From positions 1-64,000 of the forward strand of contig NZ_KB897911.1 of assembly GCF_000377205.1 (NCBI RefSeq): a stretch of DNA of 64,000 nt, written 5' to 3'. The stretch comes from Thioalkalivibrio sp. ALJ3 (GTDB lineage Bacteria > Pseudomonadota > Gammaproteobacteria > Ectothiorhodospirales > Ectothiorhodospiraceae). Made by a program: the position numbers and the translations under genes. Under the pieces are notes generated by a model. It did no database searches. It saw only the letters and a program-made list of their open reading frames with translations, and was not told the origin of the DNA. Shown in pieces: positions 38,017 to 52,118 of this stretch (positions are counted from its first letter, which is position 1; every line of letters starts with the position of its first letter).

Positions 38017-38670
38017 TCAGCGGGTGCCGAATACCACGATGGTCTTGCCGTGGGCGGTAATCAGCCCACGTTCTTCCAGGTCCTTCAGTACGCGCCCGGC
38101 CATCTCGCGCGAGCAGCCGACGATGCGCGCGATCTCCTGGCGGGTGATGCGCAGCTGCATGCCGTCCGGGTGGGTCATGGCGTCGGGTTGGCGCGCCAGA
38201 TCCAGCAGGGTGTGGGCAATGCGGCCGGTAACGTCGACAAAGGCCAAGTCCATCACCTTGCGCGAGGTCTGACGCAGGCGGGTGGCGATCTGGCTGGTCA
38301 GCAGCATCAGGATCTCCGGGTCGCGCTGCACGATCTCGCGGAACTGGGTGTAGGGGATCTCGGCGGTCTCCGTATCCTCGCGGGTGACGACCGTGGCCGA
38401 ACGAGGGTCATCCTCGAACATGCCGAGCTCGCCAAAGAACTCGCCCTTGTTCAGGTAGGCCAGTACGAGTTCGTGACCGTTGTTTTCGCCCAACACAGAA
38501 ACAGAACCGTTGACGACGTAGTACAACGTGTCCGGTACCGTGCCGGAGTGAATGATCGTCGTACGCTTGCGATAGTGCCGACGGTGGCAGTAACCGAGGA
38601 AGCGCTCCAGTGCCGGCGACGGCTGTGCCGGGCGATAGACGAACGGGTTATTCATAGTCATGGCATCCAT
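38017..38670 (-). CDS. crp: cAMP receptor protein (Crp/Vfr type)
   Basis: This is a DNA-binding regulator activated by cAMP. The 217 residues match Vfr of P. aeruginosa closely in the C-terminal half (MTHPDGMQLRITRQEIARIV). GELGMF (80-85), Arg90/Ser91 and Thr135/Ser136 are the cAMP contacts; RQEIARIVGCSREM is the helix-turn-helix. ATGs at codons 4 and 6 are alternative starts. It is divergent from the OsmC gene, as vfr is in Pseudomonas. A class III adenylate cyclase lies at 50.7 kb. Confidence 0.94.
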   Translation of the reverse strand: MDAMTMNNPFVYRPAQPSPALERFLGYCHRRHYRKRTTIIHSGTVPDTLYYVVNGSVSVLGENNGHELVLAYLNKGEFFGELGMFEDDPRSATVVTREDTETAEIPYTQFREIVQRDPEILMLLTSQIATRLRQTSRKVMDLAFVDVTGRIAHTLLDLARQPDAMTHPDGMQLRITRQEIARIVGCSREMAGRVLKDLEERGLITAHGKTIVVFGTR

Positions 38671-41091: not shown

Positions 41092-42645
41092 GTGAGCAAT
41101 CAGCAAGACGCCGACCCCAACGCCCCGCATCGCCTGACACTGCGTCCGACGCGGATGGAGGACTACGACGACATCCGCGAGATCATGGAGCGGGTCTACC
41201 ACGACCTCGACGGTGCCTGGAGCGAGGCCCAGTTTCGTTCGCAGATCTCCCGTTTCCCCGAAGGGCAGATCTGCATCGAGGACAAGGGCAAGGTGGTCGC
41301 GGCGGCGATCAGCCTGATCGTCGAGTACAAGCGTTTTGGCGATCAGCACAGCTACTGGCAGATCACCGGAAACGGGTTTCTGACAACCCACGACCCGGAC
41401 GGCGACACCCTGTACGGCGTCGATATCTTCGTTCACCCCGACTATCGCGGTCTGCGTCTTGGCCGTCGTTTGTATGACGCGCGTAAAGAGCTGTGTCAGA
41501 AGCTCAATCTGCGCGCGATCGTGGCCGGTGGGCGCATCCCGGGCTACGAGCAGCACCGGGACGAGCTGACCCCGCAGCAGTACGTGGAGAAGGTCAAGAA
41601 TCACGAGATCACCGATCCGATCCTGACCTTCCAGCTGGCCAACGATTTCCACGTTCGCAAGATCATCACCAACTACCTCCCGGACGACGAGAAATCGGGC
41701 GCCTACGCGACGCTGATCGAGTGGCTGAACATCTACTACGAGGAAAAGGAAAAGCTGATCGGGGGCAGCCGTTCGGACGTGCGCATCGGCGTGGTCCAGT
41801 GGCAGATGCGCCCGACACCGGACCTCGACTCGCTGTTTCAGCAAGTCGAGTACTTCGTGGATGCCGTCTCCGGCTACCGCTCTGACTGCGTGCTGTTCCC
41901 GGAGTTCTTCAATGGTCCGCTGATGGGCGCGTTCAACCAGGAGTATCCGGCCGAGGCCGTGCGGCACCTGGCCGAGTACACCGAGCAGATCCGCGAGGAG
42001 ATGGTGCGCCTGGCGCTCGCCTACAACATCAACATCGTCGCCGGCTCGATGCCCGAGTACAGCGACGAGGTCCTGCGCAATGTCTCCTACCTGTGTCGTC
42101 GGGACGGGACCTGGGACCGGCAGTACAAGGTCCATGTCACCCCCGACGAGGTGGCCTACTGGGGGCTGCAGGGGGGCGACGAGGTGCACGTATTCGACAC
42201 CGACTTCGGCAAGATCGGCATCCTGATCTGCTACGACGTGGAGTTCCCGGAGCTGCCCAGGGTAATGGCCGAGAAGGGGCTGCAGATCCTGTTCGTGCCG
42301 TTCTGGACCGATACCAAGAATGCCTACCTGCGGGTGCGCCGCTGTGCACAGGCGCGCGCGATCGAGAACGAGTGCTATGTCGTCATGTCGGGTTCCGTCG
42401 GCAACCTTCCCAAAGTCGAGAACATGGACATGCAGTACTCACAGGCGGCGGTGTTCACACCGTCCGACTTTGCGTTCCCGCACGATGCAGTAGCCGCCGA
42501 GGCGACGCCGAATACCGAGATGACCCTGATCGTCGATCTCGACCTCGATAACCTCAAGGAGCTGCGCAACCACGGGTCGGTGCGCAACCTGCGCGATCGT
42601 CGGCGGGATCTGTATGCGGTTCAGTGGAAGTCGAAGCCCGTCTGA
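41092..42645 (+). CDS. GNAT acetyltransferase-nitrilase (carbon-nitrogen hydrolase) fusion
   Basis: This 517-residue two-domain enzyme starts at a GTG. Residues 14-215 form a GNAT fold with the acetyl-CoA loop DYRGLRLGRRLYDAR; residues 229-515 form a nitrilase domain with the triad Glu271 (FPEFFNG), Lys346 (YKVHVT) and Cys380 (LICYDVEFPE). Such fusions are known but their substrates are not. The reaction is likely amide hydrolysis combined with N-acetylation. There are no partner metabolic genes nearby. Confidence 0.92.
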   Translation: MSNQQDADPNAPHRLTLRPTRMEDYDDIREIMERVYHDLDGAWSEAQFRSQISRFPEGQICIEDKGKVVAAAISLIVEYKRFGDQHSYWQITGNGFLTTHDPDGDTLYGVDIFVHPDYRGLRLGRRLYDARKELCQKLNLRAIVAGGRIPGYEQHRDELTPQQYVEKVKNHEITDPILTFQLANDFHVRKIITNYLPDDEKSGAYATLIEWLNIYYEEKEKLIGGSRSDVRIGVVQWQMRPTPDLDSLFQQVEYFVDAVSGYRSDCVLFPEFFNGPLMGAFNQEYPAEAVRHLAEYTEQIREEMVRLALAYNINIVAGSMPEYSDEVLRNVSYLCRRDGTWDRQYKVHVTPDEVAYWGLQGGDEVHVFDTDFGKIGILICYDVEFPELPRVMAEKGLQILFVPFWTDTKNAYLRVRRCAQARAIENECYVVMSGSVGNLPKVENMDMQYSQAAVFTPSDFAFPHDAVAAEATPNTEMTLIVDLDLDNLKELRNHGSVRNLRDRRRDLYAVQWKSKPV

Positions 42646-42788
42646 GTCGGTGCGCAAAAACGTGACCTGGTTCGCGCTGGGGCTCGTGGTGTGCTGGCGC
42701 CGGGGCGGACGCATGCGTAACCTTCCCAAGGGGGCTCGAGTCTGCCCGTGCAGGGATGTATAGCCGCGACGGGCCCCGGGGGACTTTG

Positions 42789-44087
42789 ATGACTGAACAG
42801 CAATCGCCAGCGATCCGCACCGCGATCCTGGTGGTGGATGACTCCAAGGTGATCCGGATTGCCCTGCAGCGCATCCTGCAGGGCGAGCGTGTGGTTTATG
42901 AAGCGGCGGATGGCGAAGAGGCCTGGTCGCTCCTGCAGCGCAACCCCGATGTCGGTCTGGTGCTGACGGACCTCTCCATGCCGGGCCTGGACGGACAGGA
43001 TCTGTTGCTGCGCATCCGTGATGGCGTCGAAGGGCTCCCGGCCGATCTGCCGGTTGTCATTATCACCGGCCAGGAAAGCGACGAGTCCGCCAGCCGTGAA
43101 TGGCTGGAGCTGGGTGCCAACGCCGTATTGATCAAGCCGTTCGTGCCCGGCCGTGTGCGCGACGTGGTCAATGACCTGCTGCCGCGTGCCCCCGAGGGCG
43201 GTGGCGACCAGGCACTGCGCCAGGAACTCGATCGGCTGCGTCGCGAACTGATGCTTCGCCAGCAATCGGCCGACGAGCGCGAAGCCCAGTACGAGATTGA
43301 ACGCCTGCGTGCGGCGCTGGGTGAAGCCCGCGACGAGGCGACCGCTGCCCTGCAGCGGGCCGAAGACAGCGAACGTCAGCTGGCGGAGTTGCAGGCGACC
43401 GAGATGATCGTGGGCGAAGACCCGGACGAGTCGGCGCAGGTCTCGGATGCCGCAGAGCTGACCGATGAGGTGGAGGGATTGCGCGCTCGGTTGCGCGAAT
43501 TCGAGAACGAGAACATCCGTCTTGACCACGAACTGGTGGAAGCCGACCGTCTGCGCGAGACCGTGCAAAAGGAGCGAGACCAGGCGTTGGAGGAGGCCGC
43601 CCGCCTGCGCCAGGAACGCAACCAGCAGTGCGAACGTGCGGCCGCGGCCGAGCGTGCGCGCGCCGATCTGGAGGCCCGTTGCACGGAACAGGATGGCTCG
43701 ACCTCGGCCCTGGGTGAACGGCTGGCACAGCGTGAGCAGGAGTTGGCCGAGGCGCGCGAGCGCAACCAGGCCCTCCGGAGCCGGATCCGCGAACTGGAGC
43801 AGGGGGCGGCCCCGCTGGATGCCAGCGCGTCCCTTTCGGGGGAGGGAGGTGAAGTGCCCTCGACGCGCATGGAACAGCGCGAGCCCCTGGTGGCTCGGGC
43901 CGATGACGCGGTGCTGGCGGCGGGCCCGACCCTGGCGGCGGATGCACCCGCTCCCAGGACTTCATCGCGCAAGCGCCGCAGTCGTTCGGGGCGTTCGCGC
44001 GGCTGGCGCTGGCTGAAGCTGGCTATCCTGGTCATGGTTGCCGTCGTGGTAGGTCTGGGGACCCTGATCTTCTTCCGCAACTTCTGA
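42789..44087 (+). CDS. Receiver domain-coiled coil protein with C-terminal membrane anchor
   Basis: The 432-residue protein has an N-terminal REC domain (residues 11-132): acidic pair Asp17-Asp18, phospho-acceptor Asp61 in LTDLSMPG and Lys116 in IKPF. Then come long Glu/Arg-rich coiled coils (about 140-360), an Ala/Pro-rich linker, a basic stretch (SSRKRRSRSGRSRG), and one membrane helix near the C-terminus, KLAILVMVAVVVGLGTLIFF. There is no DNA-binding or enzymatic output domain and no kinase gene adjacent. It may be a scaffold whose assembly is phosphorylation-controlled at the inner membrane. The start at MTEQQSP is preferred over an upstream ATG. Confidence 0.85.
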   Translation: MTEQQSPAIRTAILVVDDSKVIRIALQRILQGERVVYEAADGEEAWSLLQRNPDVGLVLTDLSMPGLDGQDLLLRIRDGVEGLPADLPVVIITGQESDESASREWLELGANAVLIKPFVPGRVRDVVNDLLPRAPEGGGDQALRQELDRLRRELMLRQQSADEREAQYEIERLRAALGEARDEATAALQRAEDSERQLAELQATEMIVGEDPDESAQVSDAAELTDEVEGLRARLREFENENIRLDHELVEADRLRETVQKERDQALEEAARLRQERNQQCERAAAAERARADLEARCTEQDGSTSALGERLAQREQELAEARERNQALRSRIRELEQGAAPLDASASLSGEGGEVPSTRMEQREPLVARADDAVLAAGPTLAADAPAPRTSSRKRRSRSGRSRGWRWLKLAILVMVAVVVGLGTLIFFRNF

Positions 44088-44118
44088 TTGAGCCGCCGGC
44101 CGTGCGTGGGCATGAATC

Positions 44119-44147
44119 GAGTGTGGCGGGCCGCGCCTGCCACACTC
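44119..44147. terminator. Bidirectional hairpin between convergent genes
   Basis: GAGTGTGGC and GCCACACTC form a 9-bp perfect stem around an 11-base GC-rich loop, between the receiver gene and the convergent hydrolase. It lacks a T-run, so it may end transcripts weakly or not at all. Confidence 0.4.
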
Positions 44148-44166
44148 ACGCAGCCTGGCACTCGAA

Positions 44167-44946
44167 TTACATGCGCTCCAGGGCGCTTAGCAGGTGCTTC
44201 CAGGAGTCGCGGTCGGCCCGCTCGTCGTAGCCCACCGGCATGTCGAACTTCTCGGCGATCTCGTCGGCCCCGGGGTTGGTAAAACTGTGCACCACACCGG
44301 AGAAGTCGACGAAGGTGTAGGTGGCTTCGGCGTTGTCCATCTCCTCGCGGAAGTTGGCCACCTGTTCCGGCGGTACCATCGGGTCGGCCGCGCCGTTGAA
44401 GACCAGGACCTCTGCCTTGACGTCGCCCGTCCCCGCCGGGTGGTCAGTTGCCAGCGCGCCATGGAAGCTGGCCACCAGCGCCAGATCCATCCCCGCGCGT
44501 GCCGCTTCGAGAACCACGGTTCCGCCAAAGCAATAGCCGACTCCCGCCAGGGGCTGGTCGGCCGTGGCATCGTGCTCCTTGAGCCAGTCGTGCGCGGCGG
44601 TGAAACGGCCCAGCAAGAGTTCCCGGTTACCCCGAATCTGGCCGGCGAACTCTCCCGCCTCAGACGGATGGTCGGCCTTCTTGCCGCTGCCGTACATGTC
44701 CAGCGCGAACGCGGCATAGCCCTCGCGTGCCAGTTGCTCCGCCCGATCGCGAGCATATTCGTTGTGACCCCACCACTCATGGACGACCAGGACACCCGGG
44801 TGGGGTCCGTCGCTGTCGGGGTAGGCGAGATAGCCGGTCATTTCCTCGCCATCATGTTCGTATGTGACCTCTTCGGTCTGAATGCCGGCCAGCGCCAGGC
44901 CGGGGAGGGTAAAGGCCAGTAGTGCAGCGGTCAGTCGAAACGCCAT
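44167..44946 (-). CDS. Exported dienelactone hydrolase family protein
   Basis: An alpha/beta hydrolase with a signal peptide (residues 1-20, ending GLALA). The 259-residue form starts at MAFRLTAA with GGAGG upstream; an upstream ATG would bury the signal. The dienelactone-hydrolase triad is Cys139 in GYCFGG, Asp188 in AADPMV and His220 in VVHSF, with Glu57 next to WWG. Being exported, it probably acts on esters or lactones in the periplasm. The gene is divergent from the HDOD gene. Confidence 0.9.
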   Translation of the reverse strand: MAFRLTAALLAFTLPGLALAGIQTEEVTYEHDGEEMTGYLAYPDSDGPHPGVLVVHEWWGHNEYARDRAEQLAREGYAAFALDMYGSGKKADHPSEAGEFAGQIRGNRELLLGRFTAAHDWLKEHDATADQPLAGVGYCFGGTVVLEAARAGMDLALVASFHGALATDHPAGTGDVKAEVLVFNGAADPMVPPEQVANFREEMDNAEATYTFVDFSGVVHSFTNPGADEIAEKFDMPVGYDERADRDSWKHLLSALERM

Positions 44947-45105
44947 GGGACAACCTCCATTGTGGGGGACAAGCAACAATTAACGACCCGAGTACCCGAT
45001 TATGGTTCGTTCCGTCGTGATTTGCCCGCACTTCGTTTCCCTGGCGAGGGGCATGGGGCTACAGTAGATACCACGGGGCATAGGGCCCCGTTATGGAGAA
45101 CCGGG

Positions 45106-45987
45106 ATGTCCGAGATGAACGCAACGGAAAGCCTCAAGACACGCGTCCAGTCGGCCGACAAGCTCCTGGCAATGCCGCAGGTCGTGTTCGACGTGGCGCG
45201 CCTGCTGGAAGATGACGCCAGCACACCGGGGCAGATCGCCAGCAGCCTCGGGCGTGACCCTGGCCTGGTGGCGCTGGTCCTGCGCCTGGCCAACAGCCCC
45301 GTTTACGCGCAGTCGCGCAGCGTGGATACGGTGGAACGGGCGGTAAATCTGCTCGGCCGGGATACCCTGCAGCGTCTGGTCGTCGCGGGTGCCATCACGC
45401 GTGCGACCGGCAATATTCCCGACCAGGAGCGTCTGCCACTGGAGGTGTTCTGGCGGCATTCTGCCTATTGCGCGGTAATCGCCCGTCACCTGGCCGACCG
45501 GGTCCTGCCCCGCCAGTCCGGCAGCGTGTTTCTCGCCGGGCTGCTGCACGATTTGGGCAAGCTCTTGCTGTTCACCCAGTCGCCGGAGGCGGCGCATCGT
45601 GCGTTCCTCTCCAGCCTCGATATCGGGGACGGCCTGAGCCCGCAGGGGGCCGAGCGTGAGCAGCTCGGGTTCGACCATGCGGAACTGGGTGGGGCCCTGG
45701 CTGCCCATTGGGGACTGCCGGATGGCCTGGTTGCCTGTGTGGCCGGGCACCATCATCCCCGTTCAGCGCCGGAGGCATACCGCACGGAAGTGACGCTGGT
45801 GCATCTCGCCAATACGGGAGCCCACCTGGCCGAGATCGACTCTCGCGACTGGGCCGACGCCCCGCCGGTTGATGCGAAGGTCTGGGAGATGGTCGGTCTC
45901 GGACCCGACGACTTGTTGCAGGCCGTGGAGGCGGCACAGCACGAGGTCGTGGATGTCGAGGCGCTTTGTGCGCCAGGCCCGGAGTGA
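45106..45987 (+). CDS. HDOD-domain signalling protein
   Basis: The 293 residues form an HDOD domain (about 15-215): MPQVVFDVARLLEDD, VALVLRLANSPVYAQ, and an HD pair at HDLGK (148-152), with HHHP near 226. HDOD proteins act as scaffolds or regulators in stress, motility and c-di-GMP pathways and usually lack phosphohydrolase activity. The ATG has GGAGAACCGGG upstream; longer in-frame codons are not used. Confidence 0.88.
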   Translation: MSEMNATESLKTRVQSADKLLAMPQVVFDVARLLEDDASTPGQIASSLGRDPGLVALVLRLANSPVYAQSRSVDTVERAVNLLGRDTLQRLVVAGAITRATGNIPDQERLPLEVFWRHSAYCAVIARHLADRVLPRQSGSVFLAGLLHDLGKLLLFTQSPEAAHRAFLSSLDIGDGLSPQGAEREQLGFDHAELGGALAAHWGLPDGLVACVAGHHHPRSAPEAYRTEVTLVHLANTGAHLAEIDSRDWADAPPVDAKVWEMVGLGPDDLLQAVEAAQHEVVDVEALCAPGPE

Positions 45988-48172: not shown

Positions 48173-49387
48173 TCAGCTGCCGAACAGGTGGCTGAACACG
48201 CGCGCACCGCCGATATAGGTGCCGGCGGCAGAGCCCAGTGTGGTCAGCAGGAAGACCAGCAGTACGCGCGAGACCCGATTGCGCCACCAGCCCCGCGGGG
48301 TGGTGGTGTCCTGGCGCAGGCGCGCAAAGTCGTCGACACGCGGTTTGCGCAGGAAAAGCTCGGCCGCGGCGGCGACGAAGCCGACCCCGATGGTCGGGTT
48401 CAGCGAGGTCAGCGGTGCGGCCAGCGCCGCGGTGACCACGGTCAGCGGGTGGGCCAGCGCGATGATTGCGCCGATGGCGGCGAGGCCGCCGTTGATCATT
48501 ACCCAGTCCATCACCATCTGCAGGCCGATGTCCGGATTGCGCAGGAAGCCGATCACGAAGCCGGTCAGGATGACGGCGACGATGACCCACGGCAGGATCT
48601 TCGGCCAGCGCGCCTTGGGCGGTGGCTGGTCGAGGGAATCGAGGATGGCATCGGGGGGCGTCAGGTCATCGCCCGCCTGGGTCGCGATCCCGGACAGGTG
48701 CCCGGCACCGACCACGGCGAGGATGCGGCGGTGGTTGCCGGACTCGGCCAGGCGCCGCAGGTGGGCCGCCATGTACTGGTCGCGCTCGTGGATCAGCGTC
48801 CGGTAGAGGTCCTCCGACTGTTCGGCGAACTCGCTGAAGGTCGACTCCAGCATGTCGCCTTCCTTCAGCCGTTCGATCTCCGATTCGTCGATCTTCTCGC
48901 GCGAAAGTACCGAGCCGAACAGGCCGCCGATCAGACCCATGCGTTGCCACCAGGGCACCGCGCGATAGGTGCGCCGCAGTGTCAGGCCGAGGTCGCGGTC
49001 GATCAGCGCCAGCGGCAGGCCACGATCCAGTGCCACGTCCATGGCCGCACGCATCTCGGCACCCGGTTCGATCCCGTACTGCTCGGCCAGGCGCTGTTGA
49101 TAGGCGCCCAGCGCGAGGCTTGCGGCGATCATCGGCGCCTGACCCTGACGCATCACGCTGAACAGGTCCATGCGCCGGACCGCGTCCGGGTCGAGCATCG
49201 CGCGCTGGCGGCTTTCGCACAGTTCGATCGCCACCGCGTCGAATTCGCCGGTGTCCACCAGTGCGCGCACCTTGTCGGCACTGGCGCGGGACACGTGGGC
49301 CGTGCCGAGCACGACCACCTCGGTATCGCCGAGCTGCAGAATGCGGTGGGGTTCGTCGGCGATCAGGTCGTGAACGGAGGCGGTCAT
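48173..49387 (-). CDS. TraB-family integral membrane protein
   Basis: The 404-residue form starts at MTASVHDLI. An N-terminal TraB/PrgY-like domain (about 10-245) has LGTAHVS, AIELCESRQ, and HERDQYMA with GAGHLSGI; the C-terminal third has several membrane helices. TraB relatives include pheromone-shutdown and GumN proteins and have a fold related to metalloproteases. Function here is unknown. A 40-bp palindrome lies just upstream. Confidence 0.88.
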   Translation of the reverse strand: MTASVHDLIADEPHRILQLGDTEVVVLGTAHVSRASADKVRALVDTGEFDAVAIELCESRQRAMLDPDAVRRMDLFSVMRQGQAPMIAASLALGAYQQRLAEQYGIEPGAEMRAAMDVALDRGLPLALIDRDLGLTLRRTYRAVPWWQRMGLIGGLFGSVLSREKIDESEIERLKEGDMLESTFSEFAEQSEDLYRTLIHERDQYMAAHLRRLAESGNHRRILAVVGAGHLSGIATQAGDDLTPPDAILDSLDQPPPKARWPKILPWVIVAVILTGFVIGFLRNPDIGLQMVMDWVMINGGLAAIGAIIALAHPLTVVTAALAAPLTSLNPTIGVGFVAAAAELFLRKPRVDDFARLRQDTTTPRGWWRNRVSRVLLVFLLTTLGSAAGTYIGGARVFSHLFGS

Positions 49388-49441
49388 CGCAAGCGGGTGG
49401 TCCGGTTGGGCGCGCGGGCTGCAGCGCGGCAATCCTAGGGA

Positions 49442-49481
49442 GACACCACTTGAATCGCAAGCTTGCGACTCAAGTGGTGTC
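49442..49481. repeat. 40-bp near-perfect palindrome upstream of traB-like gene
   Basis: GACACCACTTGAATCGCAAG is followed at once by its reverse complement with a single mismatch. There is no loop and no T-run on either strand. It lies between the lipoprotein gene end (49519) and the TraB start (49387), both minus strand. Together with the preceding AGG, the left half resembles the end of repeat copy 1 (18 of 23 positions), so it may be a collapsed repeat; it could also be an operator. Confidence 0.7.
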
Positions 49482-49518
49482 CGGTTGGGGTCGCTTCAGG
49501 GCTGCGACCTCCTCAGGA

Positions 49519-50673
49519 TCATTCTTCAGTGTCTTCCGCGTCCGTCTCGGGTGCATCCTCGGCATCGGACTCGGGCAACGGCGCCCCGTCGGGGCCTACC
49601 GGCATCGGGGCCTCGGGGATGCGCAGCGTGTCCAGGCGTTCGAGTACGCGCAGGGCCCGTTCCCGGGCTGTAGCCAGACCGGAGTGGTTGGGGGCCATCG
49701 CGAGCCCCTCCTCCCAGGTGTTGACTGCCTCCTGGATCTGGCCGGCGGTGTACTGGCGGCGCCCCTCCTCCAGCAGTTGCTCCGCGCGTGCATCGCGCTG
49801 TGCGCGCCATTCTTCGCACAAGGATATGCGCGCCCGCTGGGCGGCCTGGTCGGGATCCGAGGCGTCTTCGTCCAGCTGCAGATCCCCGCTCCGGCACCAC
49901 TGGGAGGCCCGCTGCAGCTCGCCCGCCTCTAGGGCCTGACGCAGTTGCGCATTGATCGCGGACAGCCGTTCGGCCTCTTTTTCGCGATCCTCGTCTTCTT
50001 CGCGTGTGCGCAACTCTTCGTTGAGTTCGCGGATGCGGGTGGCACGTTCACTCGCGGGGGACAAGTCCTGCGCCAGACGCAACAGCTCCAGACGCTCCTG
50101 CCCTTCGCTGTCCTCGGCATAGCGTTCCAGATTCTCGGCCAGGGTAGGCGCACGTTCGTTCAGGGCGTCCGGGTCTGCAGGCAATTGGTTGGTCTCCTGC
50201 ACCAGGGGACGCATGATTTCCAGCAGGCGCAATTGTTCGACCAGATTGCGGGCCTCGAGTATGTCGTGGCGTTGCTGCAGAGTACGCAGTCCGACCTGGC
50301 GCTGGCGCTCCAGCTGGTCCATAAAGCGCGTGCGCTCCTCGCTCTCGGGCAAGCGGGAGTCGGCATCCTCCAGGATCCCGAGGGCCTCGGCGACCGCGCC
50401 CTCGGCCGAAACCGCGCGCGCATCCTTCATTGCCTGATCGGCCGCCTCTTGCGCCAGGACTTCGATCTCTTCGCGTCGGGTGGCCCATTCGTTGGCCGGT
50501 TCAGGTTCGTACTCGTCGAGCAGTTCCAGAGCTCGCTGGTAGTGGCCCTCTTCGACAGCGGTTTCGATCTGGTCTTCCGCCGTCATGAAGGGCTGCATGC
50601 CGGCACAGCCCTGGAAAAACAACAGGGCGAGCGCCACCAGCAGCAGATCAAGCCGCGAGACCCGGAAACCCAT
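49519..50673 (-). CDS. Repeat-rich, coiled-coil lipoprotein coupled to adenylate cyclase
   Basis: The 384-residue protein has a signal segment and Cys at FQGC (about residue 23). The rest is almost all helical and very acidic, with TPR-like periods at AVEEGHYQRALELLDEYEPE, GAVAEALGILEDADSR and TAGQIQEAVNTWEEGLAMAP, and coiled coil between. The C-terminus is Asp/Glu-rich. It overlaps the cyclase stop by one base (TGATG), suggesting a shared role at the cell envelope, but no partner has been identified. Confidence 0.8.
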   Translation of the reverse strand: MGFRVSRLDLLLVALALLFFQGCAGMQPFMTAEDQIETAVEEGHYQRALELLDEYEPEPANEWATRREEIEVLAQEAADQAMKDARAVSAEGAVAEALGILEDADSRLPESEERTRFMDQLERQRQVGLRTLQQRHDILEARNLVEQLRLLEIMRPLVQETNQLPADPDALNERAPTLAENLERYAEDSEGQERLELLRLAQDLSPASERATRIRELNEELRTREEDEDREKEAERLSAINAQLRQALEAGELQRASQWCRSGDLQLDEDASDPDQAAQRARISLCEEWRAQRDARAEQLLEEGRRQYTAGQIQEAVNTWEEGLAMAPNHSGLATARERALRVLERLDTLRIPEAPMPVGPDGAPLPESDAEDAPETDAEDTEE

Positions 50674-52118
50674 CAATCGGCGTCCGCCACCGCGAGGACG
50701 CGAACGACCTCGACAGGTTCGCTGACACCGTGCAGTTCGTGGATTCCCCAATGCTCGGTCTCGAAATGCCCTTTCACCTGCTCATGCTCCATAAAGCAAT
50801 TTGTGGTCACCATGCCGGCGGAAGGCGCGACCGTGACCAGGCGAGCCGCCACGTTGACGGTGTCGCCGACCACGGTGAACTGCATGCGGTCTTGCGCGCC
50901 CATATTGCCGGCCAGCATCTCGCCCGCATTCAGGCCAATGCGAAACTCGACGCGTTCCTCGCCCCGACCTTGCCGTTCGGCGTTGATCGCCGCGACCGTT
51001 TCCAGCAGGGCGAGGCCGGTTCGGGCGGCGGTCTGGCGGTGATTGTCATCCCCACCGAGGCCAAATACCGCCATGGTACAGTCGCCCATGTACTTGTCTA
51101 CCGTCCCACCGTGACGGGCAATACATTCCGCCATTGGACCGAAGAATTCGTTCAGCATGCGGCCGAGTTCTTCGGGTGTGCAGCGTTCCGACAGCGAGGT
51201 GTAGCCCTTGATGTCCGCGAACAGCACTGAGCCCTCGACCGCACGCCCGCCGAGTTCGATCCGGTCCAGGTTTTCCAGGATGTCCTGCGCGATCGCATCG
51301 GAGACGTAGCGGCGCAGAGCCGATTCGACCTGGTCCTTGCGCAGCAGATCCTGGGCCATGTTATTGAAGGCGGCAGTCAGTTGGGCGATCTCGTCCTCGT
51401 GCACCATCGGCAGGGGGCGTCCGTGTTCATCCACGGGGCGGCGGATGCGTTCGCGCATGGCATGTGCCAGGCGTTCGAGTGGACGCACCAGGCGCTTGCT
51501 GATGTCGATTGCCAGGATCAGGCTGAGCAGAAACACACCGACGGCAGTCGCAATCCCTGCGTTGATGGTGTTGCGGATCAGCTCCTGCATCGGGGTGGTG
51601 TCGATATGCGCCTCGATGTACCCGACCTGGACATCCTGAAAGCGCACCTCGCGCTGGTAGGGCTCTGCCGAGGCGGCCAGTGGCCAGACTCCTTCCCCGA
51701 TGCCCCCGGGAGATGGTGGGGTGCCGGCCGAGGCGATGACGCCGCGGTCGATGGCGTAGGCGGTCACGGACTCGACGCGGCCGTCCTCGACCAGGGAGTT
51801 CAGCAGGGTTTCCAGCGTCAGGTAGTCCTCGGCCAGCATCAGCTCGGCCGAGGTGCGGGCAACCGGCGCCAGGGTCAGTTCGGCCTGCGCGCGGACCTGG
51901 TTATTGAGGACGTTGGTGACCTGGTTCAGCACCACGACCGAGAGGGTGCCGATGCCAAGCAAGGTGAGGACGGCTACGACTGCGACGATCTTCCAGGCAA
52001 TGGGCAGATAACGCGGGGTGAAGTCCCCCGCAGACAGGCGCCCGTTGCTGGGTTTTCTGGATTTCACGAAACAGAAGCCACGGAGGGTTGGCGGCGTGGG
52101 TTCAGCCATTCCCGCCAT
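50673..52118 (-). CDS. Class III adenylate cyclase, membrane-bound
   Basis: It makes cAMP from ATP. The 481-residue form has a membrane helix (about 41-67), a periplasmic sensor segment, a second helix (190-207), a HAMP domain and a C-terminal cyclase domain from about 295. Metal Asp302 and Asp346, adenine-specifying Lys342 and Asp419, and transition-state Asn422 and Arg426 are all present, so it should be active. The start is uncertain: a GTG at 52067 overlapping the upstream stop (GTGA) is an alternative to the ATG at 52118. The lipoprotein gene is coupled. Confidence 0.9.
   Translation of the reverse strand: MAGMAEPTPPTLRGFCFVKSRKPSNGRLSAGDFTPRYLPIAWKIVAVVAVLTLLGIGTLSVVVLNQVTNVLNNQVRAQAELTLAPVARTSAELMLAEDYLTLETLLNSLVEDGRVESVTAYAIDRGVIASAGTPPSPGGIGEGVWPLAASAEPYQREVRFQDVQVGYIEAHIDTTPMQELIRNTINAGIATAVGVFLLSLILAIDISKRLVRPLERLAHAMRERIRRPVDEHGRPLPMVHEDEIAQLTAAFNNMAQDLLRKDQVESALRRYVSDAIAQDILENLDRIELGGRAVEGSVLFADIKGYTSLSERCTPEELGRMLNEFFGPMAECIARHGGTVDKYMGDCTMAVFGLGGDDNHRQTAARTGLALLETVAAINAERQGRGEERVEFRIGLNAGEMLAGNMGAQDRMQFTVVGDTVNVAARLVTVAPSAGMVTTNCFMEHEQVKGHFETEHWGIHELHGVSEPVEVVRVLAVADAD

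Follow-up and report, generated by a model that had tools for sequence, protein, structure and literature searches.

At positions 42789..44087 (+ strand) of the 64,000-nucleotide stretch of Thioalkalivibrio sp. ALJ3 DNA analysed here (the window), a gene whose ATG lies at 42789 and whose stop codon ends at 44087 encodes a 432-amino-acid protein composed of a receiver domain, a helical rod, a linker and a predicted C-terminal transmembrane (TM) helix. This plan, abbreviated REC-rod-TM, marks a family that occurs in at least three bacterial families, and the HDOD protein encoded downstream is likely its partner. As the best reading of our data, at a probability of roughly 0.45, we propose that the REC-rod-TM protein would act as a scaffold, tethered to the membrane and switched by phosphorylation, through which the HDOD protein is controlled. 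An earlier note on this DNA had suggested a phosphorylation-controlled scaffold, which the sequence leaves plausible and the most sensible reading; a look through the neighbouring genes added the HDOD gene, a likely partner that the note had overlooked.

Although an alternative in-frame ATG is found upstream at 42756, 42789 is the likely start, because a script located an ATG at the equivalent place in nine of ten orthologous loci. Residues 13–127 (42825..43169, + strand) form the receiver domain, matching positions 1–110 of the 111-position PF00072 profile with an E-value of 1.5e-20. D17 and D18, D61, T93 and K116, which we take to be the acid pair, the phospho-acceptor, the Thr/Ser position and the conserved Lys, respectively, are invariant both in an 11-row genus alignment (A1, with G012 left out) and in a 12-row cross-genus alignment (A2), and the phosphorylation residues are intact in all 29 REC-rod-TM rows compared. 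AlphaFold2, run on a 10-row alignment, returned a REC fold, helices at residues 139–208, 220–340 and 404–431, and disorder from 341 to 402 (mean pLDDT 76.5). Averaged over 10-residue blocks, pLDDT was 72–97 inside both long helices and 33–40 in the linker; the pTM was 0.34, and we therefore trust the local structure alone and regard the relative placement of the parts as meaningless.

The rod, like the TM segment, was assessed by Kyte-Doolittle (KD) windows, shuffles and AlphaFold2. Its first long helix (residues 139–208; 43203..43412, + strand), assigned from AlphaFold2 and the alignments, contains the stretch LRRELMLRQQ (150–159). The corresponding motif, (L/V)R(R/T/S)EL(M/I/F)LRQ, was present in 29 of 29 rows, a conservation that is partly by construction because the script demanded some form of the motif, and it is also visible column by column in A2. 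The second helix (residues 220–340; 43446..43808, + strand) rests on AlphaFold2 and on heptad contrast. Across the rod, E, A, R, L and Q are abundant, and the best heptad contrast within residues 138–345 was matched by 2 of 300 shuffles. Support for one global period is weaker, with 3.5 reached by 205 of 1000 shuffles and 3.4 by 49 of 1000, and strict heptad periodicity across the entire rod was thus rejected. Given the weak global period beside the strong best contrast, we describe what the earlier note called a long coiled coil more cautiously, as a long, helical rod with probable coiled-coil segments. A disordered linker (residues 341–402; 43809..43994, + strand) follows and ends in a basic cluster, with nine K/R among residues 391–410.

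The chain closes with a hydrophobic helix at residues 411–429 (44019..44075, + strand), followed by the three residues RNF. Its mean KD value of 2.88 was reached by 0 of 2000 whole-protein shuffles, and the 16 residues up to its start carry seven K/R and no D/E. It is the one hydrophobic window in the KD scan of the protein; the same scan found no hydrophobic stretch at the N-terminus, where the chain begins about 12 residues ahead of the receiver. All 28 full-length proteins of family f1 have a hydrophobic 19-mer (KD ≥1.96) that ends 0–5 residues from the C-terminus, with 3–8 K/R in the 16 residues before it and 0–1 K/R after it, and across these relatives the linker sequence diverges while the helix position and charge pattern are kept. 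A C-terminal anchor, as the earlier note had it, is thereby borne out as a conserved hydrophobic helix; the term tail-anchored is exact for f1 only, because members from families f48 and f119 extend about 100 residues or more past the helix (232 residues in G319; about 100 or more, judged by eye, in G415). In these members outside f1 (L201:3954-6557, + strand; L219:1546-3897, − strand) a long Pro/Ala-rich stretch follows the helix, and this stretch would be a predicted periplasmic part.

No output domain was detected in the 432-residue chain, in agreement with the earlier note. PF00072 was the only Pfam family above cut-off, the best 25 of 79 NCBIfam rows all fell below cut-off, and the PDB matches listed (the best 50 of 1327 Foldseek matches, aligned to the receiver fold, and the best 60 of 189 in a further search) cover the receiver. 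A hidden output domain was ruled out on these grounds. GGDEF (PF00990) was not found at E 0.1 in this protein, nor in the proteins of loci L201, L148, L145, L154 and L219, and Pfam placed no HDOD domain in the chain, the HDOD protein being a separate gene. The overall order of receiver, long helices, linker with a basic end and single C-terminal helix, proposed in the earlier note, is accordingly recovered by Pfam, AlphaFold2 and the KD scan. Across 42600–45200, a sigma-70 scan gave no promoter-like site, and two terminator-like sites were found versus 1.4 expected.

A search for the same plan in relatives found it in 29 of the 47 genomes sampled from the order and in two further families of the class. 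Within the order, 28 genomes gave matches at E 1e-20, and one more (G056) showed only the C-terminal part of the protein at a contig edge. By genus, the plan is present in 15 of 30 Thioalkalivibrio genomes, 8 of 10 in g17, 0 of 1 in g18, 5 of 5 in g19 and 1 of 1 in g20; the nine best named matches all come from Thioalkalivibrio, with 47–83% identity in the best segment. The 28 full-length f1 proteins range from 412 to 700 residues (script-chosen starts) and differ mainly in rod length. Outside the order, the plan appears in f48 (G319, 868 amino acids) and, in a follow-up, in f119 (G415, 784 amino acids); the latter lies outside the 29-row pattern match and its sequence was read by eye. The class-wide sample covered 370 genomes, with three candidates scored in nearly every genome and the loci of 30 matches read, so that the plan may have been missed elsewhere in the class. 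In two further genomes, G164 and G223, the REC part is present but a contig end truncates the gene; both were excluded from the counts. We regard REC-rod-TM as a lineage-limited variant of the response-regulator design.

The gene that travels with it encodes a 293-amino-acid HDOD protein (45106..45987, + strand; PF08668, E 6.3e-50; start codon chosen by us), 1.0 kb downstream in the window. An HDOD gene lies downstream on the same strand in all 15 Thioalkalivibrio loci that have the REC gene (G052 by coordinates) and in all eight such g17 loci. In six g17/g20 loci where the script located both ends (L158, L159, L161, L163, L164 and L207), 64–142 bp separate the REC stop from the HDOD gene; in two g19 loci the HDOD gene comes about 1.7 kb after, and in G319 of f48 it also follows the REC gene. 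No HDOD match was found within 1.5 kb downstream of the REC gene in G415 of f119. Orthologues of the HDOD protein (E <1e-60) occur in 30 of the 47 genomes: both genes are present in 27, REC alone in two, HDOD alone in three and neither in 15 (Fisher p 1.2e-7, with relatedness ignored).

Five genomes are discordant. Among those with REC only, G060 (99% complete) has no HDOD match within 20 kb around the locus, and its best match (37%, E 6.9e-42) lies elsewhere in the genome; G057 (82% complete, short contig) has none at E 1e-40. Among those with HDOD only, G013 and G018 are 66–67% complete: the G018 match sits near a contig start, where the REC gene would fall off the end, and the G013 match is on a contig without the usual neighbours. 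In the third, G042, HDOD is present without the REC gene.

The locus order in 14 Thioalkalivibrio loci (the window, L038–L048, L168 and L169) is a GNAT-nitrilase fusion, REC-rod-TM, a dienelactone hydrolase on the opposite strand, HDOD and two slp-type genes; G053, with no dienelactone hydrolase match, is the exception. We examined the GNAT-nitrilase regions of 11 of the 18 REC-negative genomes (G003, G009, G011, G013, G014, G015, G016, G017, G023, G046 and G054). Eight of these loci are intact, that is, the stretch to the slp genes lies on one contig, whereas in G013, G016 and G023 the contig ends first. In all eight, REC and HDOD are both missing while the GNAT-nitrilase and slp genes stay. 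Seven of the eight are from Thioalkalivibrio and cluster by GNAT-nitrilase identity (87–89% versus 92–100%), so the joint absences may represent about two events.

Two adjacent genes were considered as partners and set aside. The GNAT acetyltransferase–carbon-nitrogen hydrolase fusion (41092-42645) is very strongly conserved: 41 of the order's 47 genomes carry it (E 1e-100), whether or not they have the REC gene, and the HDOD profile therefore does not simply mirror that of its neighbourhood. The dienelactone-hydrolase-like protein (44167..44979, − strand; PF01738, E 1e-42), whose gene separates REC from HDOD in Thioalkalivibrio (G053 apart) and in g19, is kept in seven of the eight intact loci that lack both (no match in G046) and is probably a bystander.

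HDOD domains are, to our knowledge, commonly described as inactive. We aligned 14 HDOD sequences, all from f1 and drawn from 22 loci, the rest having failed the alignment pattern. H118, H148-D149, H191, H215-H216 and D245 (293-residue numbering) are each conserved with at most one exception among these rows, and by this comparison the neighbour at 45106-45987 seems to have every HD-type metal ligand. Because these positions resemble what we take to be the metal ligands of HD phosphohydrolases, the protein may bind metal. Solved relatives include 3m1t (E 1.7e-30) and Cj0248 (1vqr, E 4.1e-9).

From these computed features we infer how the proposed scaffold might work. The REC-rod-TM protein would be an orphan response regulator with a membrane tether in place of an output domain. 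Its C-terminal helix would insert into the inner membrane and leave the N-terminal part of the protein in the cytoplasm, and the flexible linker and the two long helices, about 10 and 18 nm if straight, would keep the receiver off the membrane. The protein would probably form a dimer or oligomer. Phosphorylation of D61 by a kinase encoded elsewhere might then alter the receiver surface or the pairing of the rods, and in either direction this could capture, release or switch the soluble HDOD protein encoded nearby. The signal of the HDOD protein, and with it a physiological output, would thereby be delivered at the membrane.

A tree of receiver domains (60 rows, 121 columns; unrooted, with a midpoint root for drawing only and long branches among the outside rows) bears on where this protein came from. 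It was built without L143, L185, L173, L199 and six of the 16 loci classed as other. Fourteen REC-rod-TM domains form one clade (support 93/90) among rows of REC-GGDEF regulators, within a larger set of both types that counts 48 rows (92/95). The sister pair is L183/L196, and the joint group of 16 has support of 97/88. The tree's GGDEF label was set by length; by Pfam, L183 and L196 have no GGDEF, the family domain being present in 34 of 36 related response regulators and its canonical motif in 0 of 36. L183 has a helical-looking Ala/Glu-rich rod and no KD transmembrane window. By eye, the C-terminal ends of L183:1372-2415 (− strand) and L196:1477-2613 (+ strand) are short, basic and partly hydrophobic; they are possibly amphipathic membrane-targeting variants that could touch the membrane. 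On the simplest reading of the tree, the lineage gave up a degenerate GGDEF output and acquired a rod that attaches to the membrane, a direction that we propose from sequence comparison. An HDOD gene stands beside 6 of 36 REC-GGDEF-type loci, divergently at L062, L175, L176, L180 and L181 and downstream at L196 (which lacks GGDEF). Most flanks covered 1.5 kb, which makes this count a lower bound; in L058–L070, with flanks of up to 6 kb, L062 alone had an HDOD gene. These six neighbours suggest a wider REC-HDOD partnership.

A more specific form of our proposal, which we hold only tentatively, builds on this origin. The two genes would make up a split membrane-tethered REC/HDOD system, in which the regulator swapped its degenerate GGDEF for rod and anchor, and phosphorylation would act at the inner membrane to control an HDOD protein that is a separate chain and binds metal, and through it possibly feed into the nucleotide cyclase encoded in the same neighbourhood.

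A different kind of scaffold, resembling FrzS and AglZ, appears unlikely here. In this case the receiver and rod would go to the cell pole and organise pili or flagella, and the HDOD protein would be one of several clients or incidental. FrzS of Myxococcus xanthus consists of a REC domain, a 258-residue coiled coil and a C-terminal tail needed for localisation, shows dynamic polar localisation, and has in AglZ a counterpart of similar domain structure (in the available part of PMC1974792). HDOD proteins, moreover, have repeatedly been linked to swimming motility (PMC11813219, PMC11004494 and PMC6543031, each seen in part). However, no pilus or flagellar gene was recognised in the scanned part of the window, and the FrzS receiver lacks the phospho-Asp (available part of PMC1974792) that is invariant in REC-rod-TM.

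Further along the window, a gene for a HAMP-class III nucleotide cyclase (50673..52118, − strand; PF00211, E 1.3e-25, and PF00672) encodes a possible downstream target. It belongs to a block (48173-52118; TraB-family protein, TPR protein and the cyclase) that recurs near REC/HDOD in g1, g17 and g19. The cyclase occurs in 33 of 47 genomes, with REC in 28, without it in five; REC stands alone in one and neither is found in 13 (p 7e-7). Since this association is similarly strong to that of HDOD, the latter is not the sole possible partner. The REC-rod-TM protein might regulate the cyclase, its phosphorylation setting the membrane cyclic nucleotide and the HDOD protein being accessory. The cyclase is found in 28 of 29 REC-positive versus 5 of 18 REC-negative genomes. 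Wherever one contig covers both the cyclase and REC genes in g1, g17 and g19, they are no more than about 20 kb apart, and a CRP-type regulator (38017-38670) is encoded in the window as well. We hold this reading to be somewhat less probable than the polar scaffold. Three observations speak against it: G061 has REC and HDOD and no cyclase at E 1e-30; G009 and G011 retain the cyclase at a locus from which REC and HDOD are both missing, so it can do without them; and 6.6 kb and several genes separate it from the REC-rod-TM gene in the window.

The earlier note had seen no partner kinase nearby, and the contig agrees: of 16 HATPase_c matches in the genome, none falls on the 105,479-base contig C7 that carries the window, which excludes a kinase there. 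At one of the g17/g20 loci (L163:1410-6053, − strand; G061), a hybrid histidine kinase with PAS, HisKA, HATPase_c, two REC domains and Hpt is encoded some 3 kb away from the REC-rod-TM gene. This kinase, and a chain without output domain, would suit a phosphate sink or relay station, in which rod and anchor park the receiver near a membrane kinase and no effector is involved. We give this little credence, as an unsystematic look at other neighbourhoods noticed a kinase neighbour at the G061 locus only, and the conserved LRxEL stretch of the rod, like the HDOD linkage, speaks for a specific output. The least probable alternative takes the C-terminal helix for a sorting signal or a chance hydrophobic tail and leaves the protein unanchored: anchoring rests on hydropathy, charge pattern and a predicted helix, but the retention of the helix in 28/28 proteins despite linker divergence and the 0/2000 shuffles rule out chance, and the N-terminus, which starts close to the receiver, has no hydrophobic stretch.

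If the membrane-tethered scaffold controlling the HDOD protein is the right reading, a conserved, phosphorylatable partner encoded next door would give HDOD proteins a concrete, testable input; a real anchor would add single-pass C-terminal membrane attachment to the known response-regulator designs; and, should the split REC/HDOD arrangement hold, the two genes would form an output unit of two-component signalling in which a tail-anchored receiver brings the effector to the membrane. We did not find the REC-rod-TM plan in the open-access PMC literature (partly judged among the matches listed), nor a paper there with the exact phrase membrane-anchored, -bound, -associated or transmembrane response regulator. 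The available parts of PMC4395418 and PMC3018481 make no mention of a membrane helix after REC. Many similar proteins with a known function, a finding that the earlier note named as telling against its proposal, likewise did not turn up in that literature.

Several known systems share parts of the design. The closest receivers belong to the REC-degenerate GGDEF regulators, which surround the REC-rod-TM clade in the tree and for which we found no published name; they differ in carrying GGDEF in 34/36 and in having no KD transmembrane window (two were read without that scan). The HDOD motility proteins PSPTO_4229, SadB and Cj0248 share the domain of the HDOD neighbour (PF08668), but the available parts of PMC11813219, PMC11004494 and PMC6543031 mention no membrane-anchored REC partner for them; the first reports that its HDOD protein has so far no interaction partner, and according to the last the domain has no established mechanistic role. 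REC-HDOD regulators such as DVU0330, and GsmR, also called an HDOD response regulator, likewise combine a receiver with an HDOD output (PMC4114195, seen in part). In DVU0330 the HD residues are present and the HDOD domain shows weak activity on bis-pNPP and none on c-di-GMP (same source). There the two domains share one chain, whereas here they are separate and the REC protein has a membrane helix. FrzS/AglZ is the nearest described design, set beside REC-rod-TM by domain plan and not by rod sequence. Both begin with an N-terminal REC; this is followed in FrzS/AglZ by a long coiled coil and in REC-rod-TM by predicted long helices whose coiled-coil periodicity is only partly supported. By contrast, the FrzS/AglZ receivers are described as without phosphorylation residues, and no C-terminal membrane helix is mentioned for them in the available part of PMC1974792, whereas REC-rod-TM combines an invariant D61 with a predicted helix of this kind.
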